Under the pieces are notes generated by a model. The model was not told where the DNA came from. It worked only from the letters and a program-made list of their open reading frames with translations, and searched no databases. Positions 28,604-30,480 of a stretch of 48,492 bases of DNA are shown here, in pieces. The position numbers and the translations under genes were made by a program. Source of the DNA: an uncultured bacterium (GTDB lineage Bacteria; Cyanobacteriota; Vampirovibrionia; Gastranaerophilales; Gastranaerophilaceae); contig CACWHC010000011.1 of NCBI GenBank assembly GCA_902760645.1, positions 1 through 48,492 on the forward strand, read 5' to 3'. Numbering within the stretch: position 1 is the stretch's first letter; each line of letters opens with the position of its first letter.

Positions 28604-29797
28604 TCAAATCTCCAATATATTTTCAATTTTTCTTTCCGATTCGGGAGTGAATTTCTTCACGAATTTATTTCTGAATACGGTATCTGCAACATTTATTGCC
28701 AATTCCTTGTAACTTGCGGCAACGTTTGAGGACGGATTATCCTCAGATACCAACACCCCTTTATTTATTGAAGCCATTAAGGCAAAATAGTTATTAGGGA
28801 TTTTCCAGTATATTTTTTTCTTTAACAGCGTTTCAACATCGGAAAGAGTAATCTCATCATTTTCCATATATCTGTTGATAATTATTTGAGCCTTATTCTC
28901 ATCATATCCGAGTTTTTCAAAAAGACCCAGACAACGCTGACAATTTCTTAATGCCGGCAAATTAACGATAGTAACCAAAAATATCATGTCGGAATAATCT
29001 AACGTAGTAATAGTTTTTGCATCAAGAGTAGTGTCAGTATCAACAATTATATACGAAAAACTTTCTTTCAAAACTTCAAAAAACTTAGTTACCTGCTTTG
29101 AAGATATTTGTTTGGACGGCTTAAAATACGGTGAATCAGCCAACACATAAAGACTTGTATCTTTATACTTTTCCATCGTACTTAACAAAAAATCTCTGTT
29201 TAAAATATTCAGATTATCAAACATATACGATATATCAAAAGATGGCTGAATATCCATAAACGCAGTTATGTCACCAAACTGAAAATTCAAATCTATCAGG
29301 GCAACATTTTCTTTTGTTATCTGAGCAAGCTCCAAGGCAAGATTTGCGGCTATTGAGGTTTTACCTATGCCACCCTTGTTTGAAAATACAGTAATCATCT
29401 TGCACTTATCATGTTTTTGGATATCAATAGAAAACTGTTCTTTTACACGTTCAAGCATATCAGATAATTCTGATTTGATAAACGGATAAGCCAAAATTTC
29501 TTTTGCACCTGCTCTGATAGCAGAAACGATAAAATTAACGTCAGGATTTTCTTTAATCGCAACTATTTTTAGCTTTGAATATTCCGATGTTATTTTTTCG
29601 ATAAACTTATGCCTGTCTTTTGCCATATCAACAAAAACAAGCACTTTATCCATATTTTTCAGTGAAGCAACAATATCAGCTTCGCTACTCCACGCATCAA
29701 ATATTTCGTAATCTGATAAATCCTTTATAAAACTGCAGAGAAGCTCTTTTAACCTGTCGTTATCGGTGAATATAATTGTAGAAATCTTCTCAGCCAT
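28604..29797 (-). CDS. CpaE-like protein (receiver-like domain plus ParA/MinD ATPase)
   Basis: The 397-aa protein has an N-terminal receiver-like domain (residues 1-125: TIIFTDNDRLKELLCSF, KVLVFVDMAK, AGAKEILAYPF) and a MinD/ParA ATPase with deviant Walker A FSNKGGIGKTSIAANLALEL (about residues 138-157), followed by DLNFQFGDITAFMDIQPSFD and IIVDTDTTLDAKT. CpaE places Tad pilus machinery at the pole. It forms an operon with the CpaF-like gene. No other tad gene (rcpA, tadB, tadC, flp) is visible in the window. RBS AGAGG, just after the structured RNA at 29809-29985. Confidence 0.88.
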   Translation of the reverse strand: MAEKISTIIFTDNDRLKELLCSFIKDLSDYEIFDAWSSEADIVASLKNMDKVLVFVDMAKDRHKFIEKITSEYSKLKIVAIKENPDVNFIVSAIRAGAKEILAYPFIKSELSDMLERVKEQFSIDIQKHDKCKMITVFSNKGGIGKTSIAANLALELAQITKENVALIDLNFQFGDITAFMDIQPSFDISYMFDNLNILNRDFLLSTMEKYKDTSLYVLADSPYFKPSKQISSKQVTKFFEVLKESFSYIIVDTDTTLDAKTITTLDYSDMIFLVTIVNLPALRNCQRCLGLFEKLGYDENKAQIIINRYMENDEITLSDVETLLKKKIYWKIPNNYFALMASINKGVLVSEDNPSSNVAASYKELAINVADTVFRNKFVKKFTPESERKIENILEI

Positions 29798-29808
29798 AGT
29801 ATCCTCTT

Positions 29809-29985
29809 AAAAAAGCTCAGGGAGTGTGATTTTGTTACCTGCTAAGCTCGCAGGTGGGTGAGTGCCTTTGACTATCCGTTTCCCACTGGCGAAATATATT
29901 CGGTGGGTATACTTCACGTCGCTTTGAAGAGCGGACTCTCCCTATTTAATTAAATGTAGGAACAAAATTGAACACCCCTCTGAGC
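29809..29985 (-). ncRNA. ssrS: Structured RNA of about 177 nt, probable 6S RNA
   Basis: On the minus strand a promoter places the start at 29985. The ends pair over 12 bp with one bulge (GCTCAGAGGGGTG with CACTCCCTGAGC), followed directly by six Us at 29809-29814. Further in, ATTTTGTT pairs with AACAAAAT after a small internal loop; next come a side hairpin ACCTGC/GCAGGT on the 3' side, a helix GGGAGAGT/ACTCACCC with one A-A mismatch, and an apical hairpin with CCCAC/GTGGG. A long rod with a bulged centre, this size and own promoter fit 6S RNA, which binds RNA polymerase. I cannot test it against a 6S covariance model. The alternative is an attenuator-type leader of cpaE, whose RBS follows within a few bases. 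Confidence 0.6.
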
Positions 29986-29991
29986 AATTAT

Positions 29992-30020
29992 AGTATAGCA
30001 GTTTTTTTTGAAAAAAACAA
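29992..30020 (-). promoter_or_regulatory. Promoter of the structured RNA
   Basis: TTGTTT (30015-30020) and TATACT (29992-29997) are spaced 17 bp. Seven bases past the -10 lies 29985, the exact first base of the closing stem. Confidence 0.7.
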
Positions 30021-30051: not shown

Positions 30052-30480
30052 TTATGATCTCTCTTTTTCTTTATTTTCCGCATTTATTCTTGATTCAACT
30101 TCTTCAATTATATCACTAAAGCTGCCTGCCGGAGCAACTTCTTTATTATGCCAGCTTCCCACATGTCTTACGCTTCCGTCTTTATAGATTTCAGTCGTAT
30201 CATTTGTCATTGTCTGATTATTTATTACAACAGCACCGGAATTCGGGAAATATTCAATTGAATAACGAGGAACAAATGTTGCATACGCAGGATTTGGAAT
30301 ATCAGGTGCCTGAGTACCTATTCTTTTTAAAATACTTCTTAATTCTTTTTGAGAAAATAAGTCTGTAATATCGGTACAAACAGGTCTACCTGCCAAATTT
30401 GCAGATGCATCCTTTGTCGTTTGCACATTTGTATAATACTGTTGCGGATAAGCGGAATTAATCGGAGCTATAGTTGTCAT
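30052..30480 (-). CDS. 142-aa protein, unidentified
   Basis: ATG 30480 has an AAGGAAT site. The protein starts MTTIAPINSAYPQQYYTNVQ, with an N-terminal Tyr/Gln/Thr-rich stretch, a central FVPRYSIEYFPNSGAVVINN strand region, and an acidic end (EEVESRINAENKEKERS). No signal peptide or span. It sits upstream of the structured RNA, after a terminator that separates it from the TPR-retropepsin gene. No family recognised. Confidence 0.55.
   Translation of the reverse strand: MTTIAPINSAYPQQYYTNVQTTKDASANLAGRPVCTDITDLFSQKELRSILKRIGTQAPDIPNPAYATFVPRYSIEYFPNSGAVVINNQTMTNDTTEIYKDGSVRHVGSWHNKEVAPAGSFSDIIEEVESRINAENKEKERS

Follow-up and report, generated by a model that had tools for sequence, protein, structure and literature searches.

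A 48,492-nt stretch of DNA from an uncultured Gastranaerophilaceae bacterium (contig CACWHC010000011.1; hereafter the window) carries a rod-shaped RNA on its minus strand, between an open reading frame at 30052-30480 and a cpaE/tadZ-like ATPase gene, raising the questions of what this RNA is and how the cpaE gene behind it is transcribed. 6S RNA is a well-known bacterial small RNA that throttles the main RNA polymerase, and a first-pass annotation had called the RNA a probable 6S RNA, describing a promoter-driven 177-nt rod with a closing stem and a U6 run and giving no strand. All of these elements are present, on the minus strand (Table 1). The best explanation, which we regard as nearly certain, is that a Gastranaerophilales bacterium here carries its single-copy 6S RNA gene, of the ssrS/ssaA type, whose RNA would act by the mechanism proposed below. 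Though diverged, it is an ordinary gene of this sort, a new member of a kind already known. The lineage of the window consists of non-photosynthetic gut relatives of cyanobacteria, and its version of 6S RNA is diverged.

Table 1. Positions of the 6S RNA gene, its structural elements and the adjoining cpaE gene in the window
Feature	Position	Strand	Remarks
cpaE/tadZ-like ATPase gene	28604-29797	minus	Pfam CbiA/AAA_31, weak TadZ_N; Shine-Dalgarno AAGAGG at 29808-29803
6S RNA gene	29809-29985	minus	177 nt; 5′ end at 29985; U6 run at 29814-29809
σ70 promoter	29992-30020	minus	−35 TTGTTT at 30020-30015; 17-nt spacer; TG at 30000-29999; −10 TATACT at 29997-29992
Closing stem, 5′ arm	29972-29985	minus	Pairs with 29827-29815; compensatory changes in 9/12 consensus pairs
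Closing stem, 3′ arm	29815-29827	minus	U6 directly after; from fold, covariation and locus comparison
Helix P2, 5′ strand (AUUUUGUU)	29961-29968	minus	Predicted part of pRNA template; 8/8 pairs invariant in 47 sequences
Helix P2, 3′ strand (AACAAAAU)	29829-29836	minus	From covariation alignment
Central bubble, 5′ side (CCUACAUUUAAUUAAAUA)	29943-29960	minus	Contains near-invariant CCUACAUU; predicted pRNA start opposite C at 29956
Hairpin in central bubble, 3′ side (ACCUGC-GAGCUUA-GCAGGU)	29837-29855	minus	Pairs invariant
Apical (internal) stem and terminal loop	29857-29942	minus	Compensatory changes in helices 3, 4, 5 and 7

The transcript comprises 171 nt plus the U6 run (29985 to 29809), and no open reading frame of at least 50 codons lies over it. 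Its minimum free energy (MFE) fold reaches −60.4 kcal/mol, compared with −39.9 ± 3.9 kcal/mol for 200 shuffled sequences, none of which folds as well (z = −5.2). This fold contains all the helices named in the first-pass annotation: besides the closing stem, these are AUUUUGUU/AACAAAAU, ACCUGC/GCAGGU and GGGAGAGU/ACUCACCC. The closing stem has 13 pairs and one bulged A in the MFE fold and 12 pairs in the alignment consensus. The rod architecture, with a closing stem, a central bubble, and an apical stem capped by a terminal loop, is found in the window fold, in the consensus fold of 47 sequences and in the covariation. A scan for an intrinsic terminator at the RNA 3′ end found none, the U run being without a compact terminator hairpin; the closing stem and U run may act as the terminator.

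The promoter of the RNA gene is of the extended −10 type, with TG one base upstream of TATACT, and its inclusion explains why the first-pass span reached 30020. The usual σ70 spacing from TATACT makes the first nucleotide of the closing stem the transcription start, as had been claimed. Nearly all relatives keep this arrangement, with a TG-N-TATAAT-like −10 element at an unchanged distance from the RNA; the TG motif is present in 85 of the 91 upstream regions compared. The TATAAT nearest the start, which overlaps the −10 element five bases downstream and was picked by a promoter scan, was rejected because relatives keep TG-N-TATACT/TATAAT further upstream. To judge by its sequence, the 6S promoter of the window is strong and conserved, consistent with an abundant stationary-phase transcript. 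The open reading frame upstream (142 aa) has no Pfam match, and in relatives the upstream neighbour of the 6S gene belongs to a different gene family.

The 6S identity follows from a unique full-length match, orthologues above the Rfam cut-off, reciprocal detection of cyanobacterial 6S genes and strong covariation, and the earlier assignment is borne out. Specifically, cmscan at a relaxed threshold aligned RF00013 over its full length (model positions 1-187) to 29811-29988 (31.7 bits, E = 7.3e-5). The end-to-end match is the sole one in the 1.96-Mb genome (E = 8.6e-5). This is the Infernal check that the first-pass annotation had proposed, but the score is below the gathering cut-off of 46.4 bits, and homology was therefore tested by bridging through relatives. 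RF00013 matches occur in 86 of the 116 family genomes sampled, 10 of them over the cut-off, and in 19 of 22 genomes from other families of the order, at 38-62 bits and mostly over the cut-off; scores reach 115 bits in Cyanobacteria (photosynthetic and other phylum members). A covariance model that we built from 47 family sequences (R1) matches the window at 29807-29988 with 169.5 bits (E = 1e-36) and has exactly one copy in 111 of the 116 family genomes (98 of the 99 near-complete ones), with E-values down to 5e-44. Applied outside the family, R1 gives 83-125 bits in the order's other families and recovers cyanobacterial 6S genes at E-values down to 4e-5. Many of the records carrying near relatives are named Candidatus Gastranaerophilales or Melainabacteria. 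The other Rfam families in the region (STnc40, MicX, RT-8 and mir) were rejected, being far below their cut-offs (E = 0.24-9).

These results fill an annotation gap, in that 106 of the 116 family genomes have no 6S RNA over the Rfam cut-off though nearly all carry the gene. The orthologues missed at that cut-off, together with the promoter loss before cpaE proposed below, are what is new here. An incomplete literature search found no paper joining 6S RNA with Melainabacteria or Gastranaerophilales.

Covariation supports the structure in detail. In the consensus structure of the 47 sequences, 96.3% of cells are paired; 18 of 44 pairs are doubly changed, in 163 cells, compared with shuffle means of 14.1 pairs and 52.1 cells. 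The covariation score is 0.287 and falls to 0.05-0.10 when the partner is slid by 1-3 columns. Compensatory changes, which the first-pass annotation had proposed to look for in relatives, are found in nine of the 12 closing-stem pairs (Table 1). In helix P2 (AUUUUGUU/AACAAAAU) no pair varies, nor does any in the 3′-bubble hairpin, although the closing stem varies freely. Aligned pairs include 208 G-U and only 16 A-C combinations; since G-U is frequent and A-C mispairs are rare, the minus strand is the transcribed strand, and an RNA from the plus strand was rejected. Canonical 6S RNA is described as having G-C pairs flanking the central bubble on both sides. Here, the apical side has an invariant GGG/CCC, but the P2 side ends in U-A pairs instead, with the first G-C as the third pair.

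The cpaE start codon of the window lies 12 nt after the U run, and promoter scoring of the 75 nt before cpaE revealed no promoter between the RNA and the gene. The best promoter-like site there scores 7 and has no extended −10 element, compared with 8.5-12.5 in all relatives outside the window's clade, where 68 of 70 cpaE genes have their own extended −10 promoter. The promoter-less cpaE genes form one branch of the cpaE tree with 100/100 support, pointing to one origin; this window clade comprises 13 rows, of which two duplicate other rows exactly. Only 31-42 nt separate P2 from the start codon in the window and its nearest relatives, where a Shine-Dalgarno-like sequence follows the U run; in other near loci the figure is 52-109 nt. 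Because cpaE of the window clade has no other visible promoter, co-transcription with the 6S RNA is expected, and the promoter comparison leads us to propose, at a moderate level of confidence, that read-through from the 6S promoter drives cpaE in this clade. On such a transcript, the 6S RNA would be cut out or terminated at the U run. For the same lack of another visible promoter, and contrary to what the first-pass annotation had supposed, transcripts running into cpaE do not refute a 6S RNA; they are what we expect in the window's genus. We lean slightly towards a history in which, within this genus-level clade, cpaE lost its promoter and the 6S gene became its leader, leaving one promoter for a polymerase regulator and a pilus-assembly ATPase. 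If true, this would be a case of a 6S gene taking over as the leader of a protein gene, and pilus assembly would possibly be coupled to nutrient state.

Alternatively, cpaE could be transcribed, instead of by read-through, from a promoter hidden towards the 3′ end of the 6S gene. Throughout the window clade a U run (3-7 U) persists, which suggests continued termination of the RNA, and in one clade member (L040) a TATAAT comes right behind the stem; however, the low score of the best site before the window's cpaE argues against such a promoter, and we regard this alternative as possible but rather unlikely.

A second alternative is that the RNA is a cis-acting leader, a riboswitch or an attenuator, regulating only cpaE. 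In its favour, the window and 39 related loci have the RNA on the cpaE strand, no more than 110 nt ahead of that gene, and within the window clade cpaE mRNA has no other visible source. More broadly, we fetched 80 cpaE loci and found the RNA in the fetched flank of 55: intact, on the same strand and within 110 nt upstream in 39, cut by a contig end in two more, and 0.2-2.1 kb away in 13. In one locus, from a roe deer reticulum genome (L100:2735-2914), the 6S gene is divergent from cpaE, unlike every other close locus. Elsewhere, the RNA precedes other genes (the recA region, a CpaF-like gene, a TsaE-like gene in other families). The suggested synteny marker thus holds for the place upstream of cpaE in many loci and fails where the RNA is distant, divergent or beside other genes. 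Since the RNA is conserved without an adjoining cpaE, and constant linkage is not found, the leader reading is largely refuted; the separate promoters of cpaE genes outside the clade also speak against it, as does the fact that no alternative terminator/anti-terminator pair was seen in the RNA. We consider it very improbable.

Even less credible is a different polymerase-binding rod that only resembles 6S RNA: Ms1 of actinobacteria is reported to be a 6S-like rod that binds core polymerase instead of the holoenzyme (PMC9130861), but the score gradient to cyanobacterial 6S is continuous, the RNA occurs as one copy per genome in place of 6S, no other Rfam family matched meaningfully, and cyanobacterial 6S RNA has been shown in vitro to bind E. 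coli polymerase, to inhibit transcription and to serve as a template for pRNA (PMC5721685).

For the 6S RNA of the window, we infer polymerase binding, growth-phase control and pRNA synthesis by analogy with the 6S family. The 177-nt rod would be made from the extended −10 σ70 promoter, and its central bubble would mimic an open promoter. The RNA would bind the housekeeping RNA polymerase holoenzyme and block it under nutrient shortage. During recovery, the polymerase would copy a short pRNA from the 5′ bubble into helix P2, thereby opening P2 and releasing the enzyme. In 6S RNAs generally, pRNA synthesis begins in the 5′ bubble and the product invades P2 (PMC8876501), and Synechocystis 6S RNA supports σ-factor exchange on recovery from nitrogen starvation (PMC5721685).

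The position at which pRNA would start was mapped through the RF00013 alignment from the E. coli pRNA start position. Specifically, synthesis is predicted to begin opposite C at 29956, giving 5′-GUAGGAACAAAAUU..., and the pRNA of the 177-nt RNA is predicted to begin GUAGGAAC. That P2 is absolutely invariant and CCUACA nearly so, beside a freely covarying closing stem, appears to fit a template role. When a pRNA mimic was imposed in silico (9-20 nt blocked), the RNA was predicted to lose P2, together with some of the closing stem once 20 nt were blocked, the rest of the rod staying essentially unchanged; no new collapse helix was predicted. The diverged yet strictly conserved set of sequences can serve for testing which 6S positions matter in pRNA-driven release.

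Compared with the cyanobacterial 6Sa/SsaA/Yfr7 branch of RF00013, the window RNA agrees in length, in its rod architecture (closing stem, central bubble, apical stem) and in being single-copy in each genome, and it shares the conserved UUUUGAUC-like junction of P2 and bubble and the GGGA and CACCCACCUG blocks. It differs in a shorter closing-stem region (model positions deleted), in GUUCCUACA for GAUCUAU at the pRNA region, in the stable hairpin of the 3′ bubble, and in a sub-cut-off Rfam score in most family genomes. A small hairpin on the 3′ side of the central bubble is also present in B. subtilis 6S-1 RNA, where it is already formed in the free RNA (PMC8876501); in contrast to 6S-1, no collapse helix on pRNA binding is predicted for the window RNA. 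A 6S gene placed as leader in front of a protein gene is reminiscent of ssrS-ygfA of gamma-proteobacteria such as Coxiella, in which the 6S gene lies within the 5′ untranslated region of the protein gene (PMC4064990), except that here the downstream gene is cpaE, for a pilus-assembly ATPase, and the arrangement probably arose within Gastranaerophilales.

Several observations in relatives stand apart. In many relatives outside the window clade (L058, L065, L069, L079, L085, L088, L090, L098 and L110), only about 6 nt lie between the cpaE −10 hexamer and the start codon, a placement from which the cpaE mRNA would be leaderless. In one genus, two genomes contain longer 6S candidates of 240-256 nt (G008:C13:28061-28316 and G046:C11:25480-25719), and another genome gives only a weak match of 54 bits (G012:C56:24095-24270); in these genomes the RNA may be extended or degenerating. 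Finally, assemblies break inside or at the 6S gene in G059:C10:1-182, G030:C82:1-96, G071:C11:19-200, G141:C17:12-149, L036, L084 and L086, perhaps owing to a conserved 6S core common to co-assembled species.
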